Positions 5,922-11,356 of a stretch of 25,706 nt of DNA are shown in pieces (position 1 is the first letter of the stretch; each line of letters begins with the position of its first letter). Position numbers and translations under genes: made by a program. The notes beneath the pieces are model-generated. The model searched no databases. It was given only the letters and a program-made list of their open reading frames with translations, and was not told where the DNA came from. Source of the stretch: a virus. The stretch covers positions 1 through 25,706 of IMG/VR virus record IMGVR_UViG_3300032286_000851; one strand, written 5' to 3'.

Positions 5922-7769
5922 TTACCAATTGTTGACGAATGCAGGGCCAGCAGCGGCGGCCTTCTTTGATCTTAGCGGAGCTGTTGGTTGTTCCAAGCGG
6001 CGTTCCAGCTGATCCCATATTGTGCGTCGATCATAGCGCTGGTACATCAAATTCAATGCCGCATACGCATAGACCAAGCAATCAAGCGCTTCATTCCGTG
6101 CCGATGGTTTCTTGACCCACTCACGAACCGGAAAACCCTTCACGAAACGTAATGCCTGCTTTTCAGCGGTCAGTTGCTCAAAATATTCAGTGCCTGTTTC
6201 GTTATGAAAATGTAAAAACCCGGGGCCGATCTCGTTATGGCGCAACCGGCCAAATAACGTCGTCTTAATGGTGTCGCCACCAACCGGGTAGACCGATGCG
6301 CCGCGCTTCAGCGATTTACCTGCGCTATTAAGGTCCACCTTGCTAGCTTTTCCGATTGGTGGCTTGCCCCGCTGGCTGGAGCCTTTGATCGCCACCACGC
6401 CCTGGCGGCCGCGTTCACGCGCATATTGATACACCTCATTTGTCATATGACCGCCACTATCGATTGCAACTACATCGGGTCGCAGCTTTCCGTTTAGCTC
6501 ATGCGGCCATTCACGCAGCACTACCTCGTCCAATTGCTTCCATACCTCCGCCCTGGCTGGATCGCCAAAGATCTCTTGGTGATGTATCAACCAGCCCTCC
6601 TCATCGCGGCCCCAGCCCCATACGCTTACGGCTAGCCGGTTGTCCTGTACGTCAACACCAGCCGTCAATGCCAGCGCTCCGGCAGGAAGCACATCAGGCT
6701 CATAGGCCTCGCAGCGTTCCAGCAACGCGTCAGCGCCGATCTTGCTTGCATAATCTTCTTCCCATGTTTCGCCCAGCACCGTATTGACCCATGTCTTCAA
6801 CGCTTCCGGGTTGGTCTTGGCTTCCAAGAATTCTTCCACCAAATGCGGCCACGTTGCATTAGGGCTATAGCTATACGCTGCCCAGATATGAAAACCGATA
6901 TGCCTACCGTTGCCCGGTGCAGTTGCTAGCCATTCGCCATTTTCTACCATCCACCGCTTTTTGCTATGCGGAATCAAGACACCGCATGATTCGCAGCAAT
7001 ATGCAGCAGTGCTTGGATCGTTATCGCTCCAGCGCATATTGGCCCATTTCAAATATTGCTTATGGTTGCAATCAGGGCACGGCACAAAATAACGCCGCTG
7101 GTCTGTTTCGCCAAACATCCGCTCAATGCGGCTGAAATCTTTGACAGTGGGCGTACTGCCCGCAATGATCTTGCGGTTCCAATAATATTCAGATCGCCTG
7201 ATGCCAAGCTTGATCTGGTCACCTTCGGTGCCAGCGCTAGGCGGATAACCATCGACTTCGTCAAACAACACCACCCGCCGGCTGACACGGCGAAAACCCC
7301 GAGGGCTATTGGCGCCAACAAGGCTTAATGTCCCGCCAGGGAATTGTTTCTGCAAGATTGTATTGGCGCCATCTTTAGCCTTGGCATCACTAACCAATCC
7401 AGCCAGTACAGGCGTATCACGCAGCATTGGCGCTATCTCTTCCTTTGAGTAGCCTTGCGCGTCTTCGATCGTTGGTTGGATCAACATAATCGGGCATGGA
7501 TCCTGGTGGATGTGAAACGCAATTGCGTGGTTAAGAATCTTGGTGTAGCCAACCCGCGCAGACTTCATCACCGTGATCTGCTCCACCCGTGGGTCAGTCA
7601 CTGCATCCATAATCCCTTTCTGGTATGGCAACGTATGCCACCGCCCTGCCTCGGCGCTGCTTTCAGCCGACAGAAACGCAAACTTATCGGCCCATTGGCT
7701 AAGGGTCAGCTTTTCCGGTGGCCTGAAGCCCTCCAACGCATCAAGCACCAAGGAATTGATATCAGCCAT
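5922..7769 (-). CDS. terL: Terminase large subunit, lambda GpA family
   Basis: This 615-residue motor-nuclease packages DNA into the prohead. The Walker A-like motif KSARVGYTK (residues 69-77) is the lambda-type variant, and Walker B is VVLFDEVDG (D170, E171). A zinc-finger-like insert has CPDC at 231-234 and CCESC at 258-262. The C-terminal nuclease domain has GVDVQDNRL (D373) and VAIDSGG (D437). GpA terminases normally act on cos sites, so the element probably has cohesive ends. The ATG at 7769 lies inside the 3' end of terS (8-bp overlap), the usual coupling of the two subunits. I see no damage. Confidence 0.93.
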   Translation of the reverse strand: MADINSLVLDALEGFRPPEKLTLSQWADKFAFLSAESSAEAGRWHTLPYQKGIMDAVTDPRVEQITVMKSARVGYTKILNHAIAFHIHQDPCPIMLIQPTIEDAQGYSKEEIAPMLRDTPVLAGLVSDAKAKDGANTILQKQFPGGTLSLVGANSPRGFRRVSRRVVLFDEVDGYPPSAGTEGDQIKLGIRRSEYYWNRKIIAGSTPTVKDFSRIERMFGETDQRRYFVPCPDCNHKQYLKWANMRWSDNDPSTAAYCCESCGVLIPHSKKRWMVENGEWLATAPGNGRHIGFHIWAAYSYSPNATWPHLVEEFLEAKTNPEALKTWVNTVLGETWEEDYASKIGADALLERCEAYEPDVLPAGALALTAGVDVQDNRLAVSVWGWGRDEEGWLIHHQEIFGDPARAEVWKQLDEVVLREWPHELNGKLRPDVVAIDSGGHMTNEVYQYARERGRQGVVAIKGSSQRGKPPIGKASKVDLNSAGKSLKRGASVYPVGGDTIKTTLFGRLRHNEIGPGFLHFHNETGTEYFEQLTAEKQALRFVKGFPVREWVKKPSARNEALDCLVYAYAALNLMYQRYDRRTIWDQLERRLEQPTAPLRSKKAAAAGPAFVNNW

Positions 7770-8238
7770 CAGCTACGTCTTCCAGCGCTTCACGCACAAT
7801 ATCTTCCAAAATCACAAAGGCATCCTGCGGAAAATCTGGTATTCGTTGCTTAGCCTTAGACGGAATTCCAAGGATCTTAGTCCTTGCTATTGCCACTACT
7901 TCGCCCCATTTTAACGCTATTTCTCTTGCGCTAACCAGCTCTTTTTGTTTCTCTGCGCGTTCAAGTTCAAGCAACTCTGCCTTCAGAAACTCAGTCCTGG
8001 CCCGGCTTTCGTTGTAATCCGGTATAGACTTGTCAGTTGGTGATTGATCTGCTACCTTACCCCCGTTTATCCGTGTTTGAGTTGTTAGTGCCCAGTGTTC
8101 ACGCAAACCCTCCAGCTCGATCATTTCCTTGCCAGTTACGCTCATCTTTGTTTTGACGCGACCCTCTTTGATCGCCCGCGTGATTGCAGACGGACCAATA
8201 TTTAATGCCCTGGCGGCTTCGGCTTTAGTGACAAGCAT
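7762..8238 (-). CDS. terS: Terminase small subunit (Nu1-like)
   Basis: This 158-residue protein has an N-terminal winged-helix/HTH motif (TKAEAARALNIGPSAITRAI, residues about 4-23), as in lambda Nu1. A middle helical region (SRARTEFLKAELLELERAEK) probably mediates assembly, and the C-terminal part (about 100-158) would contact the large subunit. It would recognise the packaging site and recruit TerL, whose gene overlaps its end. The 331-bp gene-free stretch just upstream carries phased repeats, which is where lambda has cosB, the Nu1 target. The ATG at 8238 has only a weak upstream GGTGAG, about 12 bases away. Confidence 0.8.
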   Translation of the reverse strand: MLVTKAEAARALNIGPSAITRAIKEGRVKTKMSVTGKEMIELEGLREHWALTTQTRINGGKVADQSPTDKSIPDYNESRARTEFLKAELLELERAEKQKELVSAREIALKWGEVVAIARTKILGIPSKAKQRIPDFPQDAFVILEDIVREALEDVADG

Positions 8239-8267
8239 GCCGGCATATTAGCTCACCAGCAAAAAGC

Positions 8268-8296
8268 TTGCACAGTGCTGGGGTAGGGGTTATAAT
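8268..8296 (+). promoter_or_regulatory. Sigma70-type promoter, plus strand, antisense to neighbouring operons
   Basis: TTGCAC (8268-8273), a 17-base spacer and a perfect TATAAT (8291-8296) predict transcription starting near 8303 on the plus strand. No plus-strand gene of convincing length follows; the longest is an 18-codon frame from ATG 8342. A transcript would run through the repeat region and into antisense of the genes at 8570-10036. The LexA-type palindrome at 8318-8331 lies just downstream of the start point. The seen facts are the two hexamers and their spacing; use as a promoter is inferred. Confidence 0.5.
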
Positions 8297-8317
8297 GCCT
8301 GGCCCCGTTCACAAAGT

Positions 8318-8331
8318 AGTACGGTTGTACC
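8318..8331. promoter_or_regulatory. LexA-type palindrome upstream of terS
   Basis: AGTACGGTTGTACC fits the pattern RGTACNNNDGTWCB reported for cyanobacterial LexA boxes (recalled, not looked up). The half-sites AGTAC and GTACC are separated as in the units of the array at 10249-10473. A further left half-unit, TAGTACAAA, lies at 8371-8379. The site sits about 15 bases downstream of the predicted plus-strand start near 8303, and on the minus side in the leader of terS. It may bind host LexA or a phage repressor with the same specificity. Confidence 0.45.
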
Positions 8332-8393
8332 TAGTTATATAATGAGCCTCGAATTCACCCGCGGCCAGGGTAGTACAAAGGACCCAATTTGCT

Positions 8394-8512
8394 ATTGATT
8401 GTCAATAACAATAAGCTATTGATAGTGAGAATCAATTCTCAATAGTGCAAGCGATAATGACAATCAATTGCAATAAAATGGGCTTGCAATTGACAATCAA
8501 TCGCAATAAAAT
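8394..8512. repeat. Phased repeats in the terS leader: candidate TerS binding (cosB/pac) region
   Basis: Three direct copies of TGA(C/G)AATCAAT occur at 8426, 8458 and 8491, with spacings of 32 and 33 bp, close to three helical turns. The last two extend to 22 bp (8458-8479 and 8491-8512) with a single mismatch. An exact inverted copy of 13 bp (ATTGATTGTCAAT, 8394-8406) pairs with 8489-8501. A hairpin-like GAGAAT-CA-ATTCTC lies at 8427-8440. The block is AT-rich and directly precedes terS, as cosB does in lambda. Function is inferred; no cosN cut site could be identified. Confidence 0.5.
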
Positions 8513-8520
8513 CGCACACT

Positions 8521-8549
8521 AAAAAGCCCCTAGCTTTAGGCCAGGGGCT
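8521..8549 (-). terminator. Rho-independent terminator ending the 8570-10036 minus operon
   Basis: Read on the minus strand, AGCCCCTGGC and GCTAGGGGCT form a 10-bp stem with one G-U pair, a 5-base loop and a following run of five T. It lies 21 bases after the stop of the 61-residue gene at 8570. It separates the accessory operon from the terS-led packaging operon, so the latter needs its own promoter or antitermination. Confidence 0.8.
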
Positions 8550-8569
8550 GAGACTTGGTGTCAATTAAG

Positions 8570-8755
8570 CTAGAATTCAGGGTCTAGTTTGCATTGAAAA
8601 ATCAATTCATCTAATTCTTCGATTAACTCTATCAATTCGGTGCAGTCCAGCCGTTGCCGGCGCCTATGCAATAGATTAGTTTTTAGGTCGCCTAAGTGCT
8701 CCTCAGCATCTGCAATGCTGCTGAAATGGATATCCGGCCAAGATAGGTTGTGCAT
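8570..8755 (-). CDS. Small hypothetical phage protein (61 aa)
   Basis: The gene begins at ATG 8755, sharing one base with the stop of the Cys-rich protein gene upstream (TAATG), which decides this start over longer in-frame openings. The 61-residue product is acidic and helical, with a central basic patch (HRRRQRL) and a Leu/Glu-rich helix (TELIELIEELDELIF) that could mediate a coiled-coil or protein contact. I do not recognise the family. It is the last gene before the terminator at 8521. Confidence 0.6.
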   Translation of the reverse strand: MHNLSWPDIHFSSIADAEEHLGDLKTNLLHRRRQRLDCTELIELIEELDELIFQCKLDPEF

Positions 8756-9435
8756 TATTGAGCCCCCGCGATAGCGGCCGAGGCCTTGGCCTTGCTGGCA
8801 CCGTGAGCAATAAAGGCCACAATCAACTTCGCTGGCCTGGTATGGCATATGGCGCATGTTGCACAGGTAACGGTGCTATCTGGCCTTTGAGCGGGGCAAA
8901 TTACTACCCGATTGCCGGCTGGTGTATTCCAAGCGGTTCTAGTCTCACTAGCTGGCACTGCTAGCACCGCAGGCAAGCCAGCAGACACGGCAGCATCGGC
9001 CGCTAATTCGGTCTCAGTGCTTACGTTAACGGCGAATCCTTGCCGGTTGGCTTGCCTGATTAACGCTAAGTTCTCGCCCTTGCTTAAGTCGTGGTGAGTG
9101 TAAGTATAACCGCGTTTGCCTTTGTTAGCTGCAATCATACGCCTTACAAAGCGCCTAGATATCCGGCCGCCAGTGTGCACTAGGTCGCCCGCTTGATCGT
9201 GGCGCCATAACTGAGCGTAAGGCAATGCATCAATATCTGCCAAGAATTCAGATAAGGGCTTGCCTCGCTTGCCATTGGTAACAGCATCCCAATGAATTTT
9301 TAGCGGAAAGTTTTCGGCATAACAGCCGTTACCAAGAAAGGGACAGGTCGGGGAACATGTAGCGCGGCTGCTGGTGCTAACAGGAATTGGGCCGGTTTTA
9401 GTGTTGCTAGATACTAATGAAAGGTGGAATAACAT
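8755..9435 (-). CDS. Cys-rich conserved phage protein, radical-SAM-like (Gp37/Gp68 type) candidate
   Basis: From ATG 9435 the product has 226 residues. A TTG at 9492 would add 19 residues, but the ATG start gives MLFHLSLVSSNTKTGPIPVS, the opening I recall for this phage family. Cys27, Cys31 and Cys38 (CSPTC...GNGCYAE) form CX3CX6C, and a second cluster is C180 and C191-X2-C194-X2-C197. Alternating strands (LWRHDQAGD, GYTYTHHD, FAVNVSTE, AVLAVPA, VVICPAQ) suggest a partial (beta/alpha) barrel, like the phage Gp37/Gp68 proteins related to radical-SAM enzymes. The first cluster lacks the classic CX3CX2C spacing, so iron-sulfur chemistry is unproven. Function is unknown. Confidence 0.65.
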   Translation of the reverse strand: MLFHLSLVSSNTKTGPIPVSTSSRATCSPTCPFLGNGCYAENFPLKIHWDAVTNGKRGKPLSEFLADIDALPYAQLWRHDQAGDLVHTGGRISRRFVRRMIAANKGKRGYTYTHHDLSKGENLALIRQANRQGFAVNVSTETELAADAAVSAGLPAVLAVPASETRTAWNTPAGNRVVICPAQRPDSTVTCATCAICHTRPAKLIVAFIAHGASKAKASAAIAGAQ

Positions 9436-9492
9436 TTGAGGGACTGCGTTGGGATTGGGGCCAGTGAGCCACTGGCAGGGCTTTGGTAACAA

Positions 9493-9714
9493 TCAAGCGC
9501 GCTTGATTTGATCGATCTCAGCATCTACAGGGAACTGGCCGGTGCTACGGCCCTCTAGAAAACAGTCAACCGCTTCGCCGCGATCGCGGCACTCTTCAAC
9601 AGTAAGCCAGCCCCAGCGGCCGGATGGTGTTGACCAAACAATGGAGAAAGTAAGCATGGCAGGGAAGTTGCAGTAGGGACAGGGGATGGAATTAAACGTA
9701 TCGAGGCGATGCAT
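9493..9714 (-). CDS. Small CPYC-motif hypothetical protein
   Basis: This is a 73-residue protein with CPYC near the N-terminus (MHRLDTFNSIPCPYCNFPAM), tryptophans in WSTPSGRWGWLTVEECRDRG, and an acidic end. A single CxxC plus a later Cys could bind zinc if paired with another chain. An in-frame stop directly precedes ATG 9714, so the start is fixed. The stop is immediately followed by the TTG that is the alternative start of the next gene. I do not recognise the family. A competing frame starting at 9740 overlaps an ATGA but has a biased Pro/Leu/Arg composition and was not chosen. Confidence 0.5.
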   Translation of the reverse strand: MHRLDTFNSIPCPYCNFPAMLTFSIVWSTPSGRWGWLTVEECRDRGEAVDCFLEGRSTGQFPVDAEIDQIKRA

Positions 9715-9736
9715 TCACCGGGCAAGGTCGGGCCGG

Positions 9737-10036
9737 TCATGCGAGGCCCCTCCGCACTTGGTGGCGGGTGATGCCGAGGCGGGCCGCTATGGCGCGTTGG
9801 CTTAGGCCGGCAGCTGCTAGCGATTGGATAGTAGAGGGCTGGGCCTGAGCATCGATGCGATCGGCTAGTAGCCGCAGCCAAGCGGCGACATAAGGCGCCA
9901 ACCTGACGGCGAGAACATGCACTACGGCGACGGCGATCATTGCGGCACCGATCACGGCCGAGGCAATTGCCACTAGGTCCAGGCTGCGAAGCCAAGCGGC
10001 CAGATCATCAATAGGAGGGAAGGACGGGGAGGTCAT
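9737..10036 (-). CDS. Membrane-anchored helix-turn-helix protein
   Basis: From ATG 10036 the 99-residue product has a transmembrane helix at about 19-48 (VAIASAVIGAAMIAVAVVHV) and an amphipathic linker. A C-terminal Hin-recombinase-like HTH follows (IQSLAAAGLSQRAIAARLG, then ITRHQVRRGLA) and runs to the last residue. The protein could hold DNA at the membrane or act as a membrane-tethered regulator. The same frame is open upstream to a GTG at 10159, but that extra sequence looks non-coding. It is the first gene downstream of the palindrome array, so the array may control it. The TM-HTH order is unusual for a protein of this size. Confidence 0.55.
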   Translation of the reverse strand: MTSPSFPPIDDLAAWLRSLDLVAIASAVIGAAMIAVAVVHVLAVRLAPYVAAWLRLLADRIDAQAQPSTIQSLAAAGLSQRAIAARLGITRHQVRRGLA

Positions 10037-10248
10037 AGGAGGGAAGTGCGACGGGATGACGCAAGGGACAGCTGTCGCCTCGCTCTTGCATTCTGCCGAT
10101 ATATAGGCCACTGGCGACCCATTGCGGCCAATTTGCCAATTGGCACAAAGTGCGGCCACCTAGGCCAGCTTGCGGCTGTGGCGCGTTACTTGGCACGGCG
10201 GCGCCTCGGCACCTTGGGGAAGCGGGCAGCACCAACCGGCACCGCAGC
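10037..10248. other. GC-rich stretch without a confident gene, between array and HTH gene
   Basis: No frame here is convincing. Open frames exist on both strands but have skewed Arg/Pro/Ala composition. A 12-bp perfect palindrome TGCCAATTGGCA lies at 10134-10145, inside a wider inverted repeat CCAATT-N4-AATTGG at 10128-10143. If promoters in the array drive the minus operon, this stretch is a ~200-nt leader, and the palindrome could be an operator or RNA structure. Confidence 0.35.
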
Positions 10249-10473
10249 TAGTACAAATGCACACTAATACAAATGTATTAATTAACGGTAGTGTTATAAA
10301 ATAATATTGCGCTCTAAATATAATGCAAATGTACTATAGTACAAATGTACTATTAATACAAATGTACTTTAGTATGCATGCACTATAGTACAAACGTATT
10401 AATCAACGATAGCGTTATATAGTAATATTATGCTTTTGTTATAGTACAAATGCACTATAGTACAAATATACCA
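10249..10473. repeat. Array of nine 16-bp palindromic units (LexA-box-like operators or iterons)
   Basis: Units related to TAGTACAAATGTACTA start at 10249, 10265, 10321, 10337, 10354, 10370, 10386, 10442 and 10458. Most neighbours abut at a 16-bp pitch (one at 17). The unit at 10337 is a perfect AGTACA-AA-TGTACT palindrome and fits the recalled cyanobacterial LexA pattern RGTACNNNDGTWCB. The unit at 10265 is a perfect palindrome with both half-sites changed together (TAATACA-AA-TGTATTA). Two 40-bp spacers (10281-10320 and 10402-10441) match at 29 of 40 positions. So 10265-10352 and 10386-10473 form a larger direct repeat offset by 121 bp. The block is strongly AT-rich and gene-free. Confidence 0.85.
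10333..10361 (-). promoter_or_regulatory. Promoter-like pair inside the array, minus strand
   Basis: On the minus strand, TTGTAT (10361-10356), 17 bases and TATAGT (10338-10333) form a plausible promoter made from two array units. A further pair, TTGTAC (10344-10339), 16 bases and TATATT (10322-10317), lies just downstream. Protein bound to the palindromes would cover both hexamers. Direction is towards the HTH gene at 10036. Confidence 0.35.
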
Positions 10474-10482
10474 AACACTCAA
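10454..10482 (-). promoter_or_regulatory. Outermost promoter candidate of the array, minus strand
   Basis: TTGAGT (10482-10477), a 17-base spacer and TATAGT (10459-10454) predict a start near 10447 on the minus strand. The spacer and -10 are covered by the units at 10442 and 10458, so occupancy of these would repress it. It would transcribe the whole array and then the 8570-10036 operon. Confidence 0.4.
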
Positions 10483-10541
10483 TTTATAAATTAGGCAAAA
10501 ACTACATATAAACCAACTTCGCGCCGTCTCAAAAAACACCC

Positions 10542-10589
10542 TTTAAACCGACCCCTTGCAAGTCCCTTAAACCGACCCCTTGCAAGTCC
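10542..10589. repeat. Two tandem 24-bp repeats downstream of the gpZ-like gene
   Basis: Two head-to-tail units, 10542-10565 and 10566-10589, differ only at the first base. Each reads TTAAACCGACCCCTTGCAAG plus TCC and contains the 8-bp palindrome CTTGCAAG. The second unit ends at the stop codon of the 255-residue gene. No stem-loop with a U-run fits a terminator. Possible roles are a protein site, part of an origin with the adjacent array, or a slippage duplication. Confidence 0.8.
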
Positions 10590-11356
10590 TAAATTTTTTT
10601 GACAAATTGCAAAACGGCTTGATTGAAGATCGGCAAAACATTTTTGTTAATTGCATCTTCTGCTGTAAACATAAAGTCGTAACGTTTAGCAACAGTTGGC
10701 ACCCGTTCCAATTGCTTAAACACCTGCACCGGTGTCTGCCGCATTATCCGGTAAATGCCAGGTGCTGGGATCTTGCCCTTGCCCAAGGCCCTCATCTGCT
10801 TCGCCAGAGCGTCCCTGCTGCCCACGTAAGGCACATAGGCGTAGCTGCCCTCTGTCCGGTACCTCCCGGGCCTTACAGAGGCCCTGATGTCCTCAAAAGC
10901 CTTGATCCCATAAAGTGCCTCCACATACTGCGATGCCCGCATCCGGCCCTGGGCATTGCGCTTGGTGCCAGCGGAGTTCTCGATCGGCAGCATGTAACGG
11001 CCGTTATAGCCCTCAAGCTGCGAACCCAGTCGCACTTGAAACCGAGTTTGATACACCATGCCGCCCTTGATCTGCGGCAGCAGATAGCTAGACGGCGGCT
11101 GACCCTTTGTCGCTTCGTCCCGCAGGTATATCTCGGTGTAAGGCGCAGCCTTGGTGGCTAGGTGGCGGTACAGGACGCTTTTGAGCGTAAAAGGGCTTAC
11201 ACGGTTGAACGAGTCGGTCATCTCATGCTGCAGGGCCTTACGGACCACGCTGGCAAGCCTGTTGACCGTCACTGCCGCCAGGAACGGCAATTGCACCTGG
11301 GTGACAAGGTCCAGCTCGCGCTGCAGCTGCTGACCATTGAACGAAACGGTGGCCAA
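10589..11356 (-). CDS. Phage structural protein, tail-completion gpZ-like candidate
   Basis: This 255-residue basic protein begins with a helical region (LPFLAAVTVNRLASVVRKAL, residues about 23-42), followed by FNRVSPFTLKSVLYR, then YLLPQIKGGMVYQ and a C-terminal EDAINKNVLPIFNQAV helix. I recall this arrangement from prophage proteins of 200-260 residues often grouped with minor tail protein Z or neck proteins, but the match is to general pattern only. The only possible start near the N-terminus is TTG 11356, because an in-frame stop lies upstream. That start sits directly after the U-run of a terminator, so its transcription is puzzling. It is distant from the other tail genes. Confidence 0.5.
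   Translation of the reverse strand: MATVSFNGQQLQRELDLVTQVQLPFLAAVTVNRLASVVRKALQHEMTDSFNRVSPFTLKSVLYRHLATKAAPYTEIYLRDEATKGQPPSSYLLPQIKGGMVYQTRFQVRLGSQLEGYNGRYMLPIENSAGTKRNAQGRMRASQYVEALYGIKAFEDIRASVRPGRYRTEGSYAYVPYVGSRDALAKQMRALGKGKIPAPGIYRIMRQTPVQVFKQLERVPTVAKRYDFMFTAEDAINKNVLPIFNQAVLQFVKKI

Follow-up and report, generated by a model that had tools for sequence, protein, structure and literature searches.

The stretch of DNA analysed here (the window) is a single IMG/VR virus record of 25,706 bases. Its gene set includes lambda-like head genes (gpA-type terminase, portal and head protein), and a PriCT/VapE primase-helicase and a RecT-like protein are also encoded. Neither tRNA genes (ARAGORN) nor Rfam families at gathering score were found within it. 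Among isolates, the Lake Bourget phage S-LBS1 of Synechococcus came out closest, with identities of 46.7% for terL and 48.8% for the primase, and judging from this nearest isolate phage the hosts of the window virus are probably freshwater picocyanobacteria. Between the stop of a minor-tail-type gene and a leftward block, which consists of a small helix-turn-helix (HTH) protein, DUF7227, terS, terL and head genes, stands an array of nine palindrome-like units. The features of this region are collected in Table 1.

Table 1. Features in and around the repeat array (positions in the window; bits refer to the host-LexA matrix described in the text)
Feature	Position	Strand	Evidence or remark
Terminase small subunit gene (terS)	7762..8238	-	PHROG 57, E=3.2e-23
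Isolated LexA-box consensus match AGTACGGTTGTACC	8318..8331	+	Upstream of terS; sole strict match outside the array
DUF7227 gene	8755..9492	-	Pfam PF23872, E=4.8e-78; synteny; 5' end towards the array
Small ORF, hydrophobic stretch and C-terminal HTH, first gene of leftward block	9737..10036	-	Pfam HTH_23, E=1e-4 (22.4 bits, below the cut-off of 24.6); hydrophobic stretch and start codon assigned by eye
Unit 1 TAGTACAAATGCACAC	10249..10264	+	9.8 bits
Unit 2 TAATACAAATGTATTA	10265..10280	+	17.6 bits
Spacer 1, 40 bp, contains TAACGGTAGTGTTA	10281..10320		ATAACG N4 CGTTAT-like palindrome
Unit 3 TAATGCAAATGTACTA	10321..10336	+	12.5 bits
Unit 4 TAGTACAAATGTACTA, consensus unit	10337..10352	+	21.2 bits, top LexA-matrix score of the window
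Unit 5 TAATACAAATGTACTT	10354..10369	+	19.2 bits
Unit 6 TAGTATGCATGCACTA	10370..10385	+	9.3 bits
Unit 7 TAGTACAAACGTATTA	10386..10401	+	16.9 bits
Spacer 2, 40 bp, contains CAACGATAGCGTTA	10402..10441		Second ATAACG-type palindrome
Unit 8 TAGTACAAATGCACTA	10442..10457	+	14.6 bits
Unit 9 TAGTACAAATATACCA	10458..10473	+	15.5 bits
Weak sigma-70-like promoter TTGAGT-17-TATAGT	10454..10482	-	9/12 matches; its spacer takes in most of unit 9
Two direct 24-bp repeats, core CTTGCAAGGGGTCGGTTTAA / CTTGCAAGGGGTCGGTTTA	10540..10587	-	At the stop of the tail gene
Minor tail protein gene	10589..11356	-	PHROG 1924, E=4.8e-34

The preliminary description had reported nine 16-bp units, mostly abutting, at 10249-10473, and all nine are found there. 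Two 40-bp spacers divide them into groups of 2, 5 and 2, within which neighbours abut or stand one base apart. When up to three mismatches to AGTACAAATGTACT are allowed on either strand, the window contains 13 matches, 11 of them inside the array, compared with a mean of 1.2 and a maximum of 5 in 100 shuffles of the window. These 11 matches represent eight of the nine units, three of which are matched on both strands. The asymmetric core has the same orientation in eight of the nine units. Unit 2 does carry the compensating changes that had been ascribed to it, in the form of symmetric G>A/C>T substitutions in both half-sites. Unit 4, which had been called a perfect palindrome, pairs at only seven of eight positions, as its central A/A is not complementary. 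The surrounding block is AT-rich as described, with 34% G+C in 10251-10750 versus 63% in 9751-10250 and 59% in 10751-11250. It had also been called gene-free, and no ORF of at least 60 aa lies within 10268-10588, but a 73-aa ORF (10046-10267, plus strand) overlaps the left edge. Absent from that earlier account were a higher-order duplication and the two ATAACG..CGTTAT-like palindromes in the spacers. The 102 bp starting at 10249 are repeated 121 bp downstream with 78% identity, so that part of the array looks duplicated. Because two relatives on separate IMG/VR contigs (L033 and L034) have the array as well, an assembly artefact is unlikely.

Cyanobacterial LexA boxes (RGTACNNNDGTWCB / AGTACWNWTGTACT; PMC3091678) contain the same 14-bp site as the array. 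In Table 1 of that source GGTACAAATGTATT is listed upstream of lexA in Synechococcus CC9605 and CC9902 and in Prochlorococcus MED4, and the core of this sequence in the three marine lexA promoters, CAAATG, is identical to the core of the array. The 48 host sites of the same table, themselves mostly predictions, were used to build a LexA matrix that includes no phage sequence. All nine units score at least 9 bits with this matrix and seven exceed 11.3 bits, the 10th percentile of the host sites, while unit 4 ranks first in the window, its score exceeding the host median of 17.0 bits. Sites of at least 9 bits averaged 0.53, with a maximum of 4, in 2000 shuffles of the array region; the whole window holds 14 of them versus a mean of 3.84 and a maximum of 10 in 100 shuffles. 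At 14 bits or more there are eight sites in the window, two of them outside the array (7405, in terL, and 8318). The core unit had been said to fit RGTACNNNDGTWCB, and positions 10338-10351 do so on both strands, but only one of the nine units follows this consensus strictly. Taken as sequences, the array sites bear a well-supported resemblance to LexA boxes, given the host-only matrix, the core shared with lexA promoters and the occurrence of the site in different phage lineages. The layout differs from that of the host sites, since PMC3091678 gives one predicted site per transcription unit, whereas the array has nine in tandem at 16-17 bp, mostly imperfect, within a phage.

In the open-access titles and abstract openings covered, we came across no account of such arrays, and the array had no blastn match among GenBank phages. 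A pattern of two adjacent CAAATG units, scanned without a control, occurs in 25 viral-contig stretches, among which L016 looks like a chance match. The same pattern was found in five stretches of a genome collection, where the phage sequence in L030 is that of L023 again and no record concerned has a cyanobacterium in its title. With the centre left free, the tandem AGTACN4GTACT-NN-AGTACN4GTACT was present in 50 viral-contig stretches versus one for the reversed control. Carriers of arrays include relatives of the window's lambda-like siphophage as well as T7-like contigs. The T7-like L020 has a T7-type RNA polymerase and a terminase sharing 89% identity with its counterpart in P-SSP10, a Prochlorococcus phage, L010 has a different terminase type, and L107, with ribonucleotide reductase genes, has Synechococcus phage S-CBS4 as its nearest GenBank record (70.7% over 29% of the stretch).

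For comparison between arrays, 58 dereplicated arrays with 236 sites were used. Their site centres take many forms. The half-sites are near-constant across the 236 sites, but site selection required most of that constancy. The outer T is kept in 182 and the outer A in 197 of the 236 sites; these bases were not selected by the free-centre scan, but the 3' TA was selected for in the first scan with the paired CAAATG pattern. Successive sites follow each other at a pitch of 16 bp in 94 pairs and 17 bp in 14, which is partly a product of selection, and 42 of the 58 arrays have only two to four sites. Hits to the LexA matrix of at least 14 bits lie nearly all in one spot in 8 of 11 records examined (the window plus ten further records, of which two are slightly incomplete). 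All six hits of G007 fall inside about 150 bp at 38.8 kb, all three of G020 inside 50 bp at 53 kb, and 13 of the 14 in the T7-like G008 inside 1 kb. The exceptions are the window, with its two hits outside the array, G012, with three hits in two places, and G029, with two scattered hits and no array. None of six isolate cyanophages carries an array (S-LBS1, S-CBS1, S-CBS4 and P-SSP7 searched whole, P-SSP10 and 9515-10a in part); S-CBS4 has four scattered LexA-matrix hits.

The order of tail gene, array and DUF7227 is kept in L006, L008 and L026, with terS next in L026, while in L013 and L024 the two units lie on the downstream side of DUF7227. Among the 66 loci found by DNA pattern, a set that leaves out the window and the loci fetched by protein (L033-L098), a DUF7227/GP88 gene lies inside the fetched stretch in 28, and its 5' end is towards the array in 25 of these. 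After dereplication the corresponding counts are 22 of 49 and 19 of 22, and where 1.6 kb or more was available on each side (27 loci), 13 have such a gene. 'DUF7227' and 'GP88' denote sequence clusters here, each named from the Pfam match of one member. Loci that were fetched by their DUF7227 gene (L073-L098) have at least two sites in 6 of 26 cases and none in 20, some of the stretches being short, and DUF7227 thus often occurs without an array. A promoter scan of 8200-10620 gave weak matches only, with 8 sites versus a shuffle mean of 3.4. The LexA-type boxes of the window lie in a probable control region in which the promoter matches are weak.

Several further observations concern these two proteins. 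Kinship between DUF7227 and GP88 was considered and is not detectable (hhalign probability 0.2%). The predicted model of DUF7227 is confident (pLDDT 92.7) and has no match in the PDB at E<=0.001. The protein also has several cysteines and histidines that are invariant and may make up a metal site. Relatives of GP88 (L107 4124-5035) occur in 84 GenBank phage records, Pelagibacter phages included, and the position of the gene within the first 1.6 kb of some Pelagibacter phage records hints at an early gene.

With moderate confidence we propose that the array is a set of host-LexA operators (SOS boxes) controlling the leftward HTH-DUF7227-terminase-head block. What the sequences themselves show is the sites, their match to published host LexA sites, their position and their recurrence in different phages. 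Binding by LexA, repression and SOS release are what we infer from the sequences. With LexA dimers on the sites at their 16-bp spacing, the leftward block would stay repressed. Damage to host DNA, or single-stranded DNA arising from phage replication, would activate RecA, upon which LexA would cleave itself and the leftward block would be released. The host's cleavable repressor would in this way serve the phage where lambda has CI. Weighing against the operator reading are the lack of arrays in the six isolate cyanophages, the loci with DUF7227 or the tail gene that have few or no sites, the weak promoter matches and the divergence of half-sites described below.

The nearest known case appears to be Bacillus thuringiensis phage GIL01, in which host LexA together with phage gp7 represses promoter P1 (PMC4551915). 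Phage transcription in GIL01 is kept down by host LexA bound to SOS boxes of the phage and is freed by SOS, as we propose for the array. As described in that source, GIL01 has dinBox1 with a single non-canonical site beside it, and also the helper gp7. The arrays of picocyanophage type have 2-13 tandem sites, some mixed with other palindromes, are found in other phage families and have no gp7 known, so that by our analysis they would be larger than the GIL01 arrangement and sometimes composite. GIL01 itself also has a LexA homologue, which activates lytic genes. Phage release from natural Synechococcus populations upon mitomycin C is reported in the S-LBS1 paper of 2018 (PMC6157547), which adds that no inducible prophage was at that time known from isolates of Synechococcus or Prochlorococcus. 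If true, operators for host LexA would be a direct link from DNA damage to phage development in dominant photosynthetic bacteria.

The preliminary description had suggested comparing related phages for unit number and conservation, and the outcome is mixed. Both of the closest relatives retain the array as a whole, yet individual half-sites diverge at the pace of the spacers. Between the window and L034, differences amount to 21/86 in half-sites (24%), 5/36 in centres, 11/49 in spacers (22%) and 4/127 in the tail-side flank; the respective figures for L033 are 5/90, 0/36, 4/80 and 3/127. Two of the nine units can no longer be recognised in L034 or have been lost there, and the unit with the full consensus shifts from 10337 in the window to 10321 in L033 and 10442 in L034. 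Half-site divergence, lost units and a shifting consensus unit thus indicate fast turnover of units. Among more distant loci, fetched by their tail gene (L033-L072), 25 of 40 have at least two sites, but 15 have at most one (one in 6, none in 9), some of these stretches being short. The summed LexA score of the seven units shared with L034 is 107.2 bits in the window and 116.5 in L034, compared with 64.7 +/- 10.9 under random change, and the summed unit score of L033 is 140.4 versus 121.5 +/- 6.7. We do not regard this retained score as proof of selection, because an initially perfect array decaying symmetrically would give the same outcome, and the Ts/Tv ratio of the units is no different from that elsewhere (P=0.23 and 0.26).

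Such turnover would also fit a repressor sponge, the main rival to the operator reading. Its LexA boxes would soak up LexA as phage DNA multiplies, and those of relatives Fur-like regulators too, so that host repair and metal-uptake genes would be derepressed. The packing of many sites into one short non-coding stretch, the adjacency of several kinds of palindrome in relatives and the presence of arrays in records without a detected integrase are likewise in keeping with a sponge. Yet a sponge could lie anywhere, whereas the 5' end of DUF7227/GP88 is towards the array in 25 of 28 loci, and two to four sites, as in most arrays, are few for that purpose. We consider the sponge unlikely.

The operator reading assigns the sites to a host protein, and the regulators and lysogeny genes of the phages themselves bear on this. 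There is no LexA-family match in the window. Peptidase_S24, as in S24-type repressors, was found in none of 40 records, many of them fragmentary. A tyrosine integrase is present in 5 of the 40, one with a stop and the window not among them, and a serine recombinase in none of 21. With no cyanobacterial title among the five genome-collection stretches either, a prophage state is at most hypothetical. HTH_3 matches lie above the cut-off in 4 of 21 records and reach E<=0.001 in 10; that of the window, below the cut-off, is the HTH protein at 9737-10036. Proteins of this type recur beside such arrays and could be membrane-bound regulators. The single family shared by the window and the T7-like G008 in BLAST comparisons at E<=1e-4 is an HNH-like protein (named by eye). 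That phages share the site and yet no regulator argues for recognition by a host protein.

A phage repressor or initiator acting on the LexA half-site, which the preliminary description had offered as its alternative, is accordingly the less likely option, with no S24-type repressor in the 40 records and only the HNH-like protein shared with G008. In the form of operators for a phage-encoded regulator such as the HTH protein at 9737-10036, we place it slightly below the sponge. The HTH gene adjoins the array in the window and several relatives, and the HTH_3 matches given above count in its favour. However, L048 has a relative of the HTH protein and no LexA-type site in its 5.3 kb. The HTH cluster is also absent from the ORFs of at least 70 aa of T7-like contigs with large arrays, though this ORF calling also overlooked the copy in the window, where it had picked a different frame. 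A plasmid-type partition site was considered too and rejected, as PF13614 / AAA_31 (ParA) is above the cut-off in none of 21 records, with one weak match in G008.

The iterons of the lambda origin are tandem imperfect palindromes in one orientation within an AT-rich stretch. The array has the same layout, the PriCT/VapE primase gene is close by, eight of the nine unit cores point one way and direct repeats follow at 10540-10587, so that an origin of replication with iterons like those bound by lambda O has to be weighed. The unit of the array, however, matches a host repressor site and is common to different phages. One site would have to serve phages with different replication and transcription genes, the centres differ between phages, and the match to the host-LexA matrix would be a coincidence. 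Of all the explanations weighed here we hold an origin to be the least probable.

Only marginally better placed, and in our opinion improbable, is a packaging site (cos/pac) or a functionless remnant of slipped duplication. The array is upstream of terS, the 121-bp duplication and fast divergence of units would suit a relic, and in S-LBS1 the interval from primase to terS holds a repeat block of another kind. The place of that block in this nearest isolate is comparable to that of the window array, but its repeats (L032 34236-34641) are of the CCTAACCT / GGGCAGGTT type, a motif unlike that of the array, and S-LBS1 differs from the window in having an integrase and no LexA site of at least 14 bits. 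Neither packaging nor a relic accounts for the LexA match or for the repeated appearance of the site, with differing centres, among different phages.

Other palindromes occur in the array regions without having been selected for, namely GAGAAT-N1-ATTCTC in 8 of 58, TAAGCT-N1-AGCTTA in 7 and TATGCG-N6-CGCATA in 11. Exact ATAACG-N4-CGTTAT is found in 4 of the 58, and each of these four kinds is found in none of 281 background windows. The 7-base form TGAGAAT-N1-ATTCTCA has 7 of 58 versus 1 of 281 in a second draw of background windows. The GAGAAT-N1-ATTCTC palindrome presumably resembles Fur-family boxes. There is no Fur-like site in the window, where the spacers hold the two ATAACG-type palindromes. 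As a host Fur box GAGAATNATTCTC found no confirmation, the Zur box given in PMC9337993 being related to it and not equal. Paired Fur-like GAGAATNATTCTC palindromes, scanned without a control, were seen in 48 viral-contig stretches (L291-L335) of widely varying G+C. Several cyanophage-like stretches (L107, L117, L131, L132, L138 etc.) have dense mixed palindromes (GTAC, ATAAGCT, ATATGCGCATAT, ATAACG) upstream of GP88/DUF7227.

Tandem boxes of another kind, CGAACN4GTTCG, are present in at least 120 viral-contig stretches versus 3 for the reversed control, with a pitch of mostly 15-16 bp (L171 4698-4727; L172-L290). L171 is Gordonia phage Marietta, where the boxes lie between the divergent genes 77 and 78. 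Actinobacterial LexA uses the CGAACN4GTTCG box. The same box is cited in PMC3091678 as the B. subtilis LexA type. Similar arrays in unrelated viruses suggest that the phages carrying them tap the host's own stress sensors. More tentatively, many picocyanobacterial phages might have no known cleavable repressor and bear in its place composite islands of operators for several global repressors of the host (LexA, Fur-family and others) through which both DNA damage and metal state are read, the type of box being matched to the host and the arrangement recurring in, for example, Gordonia phages. If this is true, some relatives would respond to metal state in addition, through their Fur-like boxes.

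The 24-bp repeats at 10540-10587 may be iterons or processing sites. At least two copies of this repeat are found near the tail-gene stop in 29 of 53 loci with this gene, some of these loci being from the same contig.
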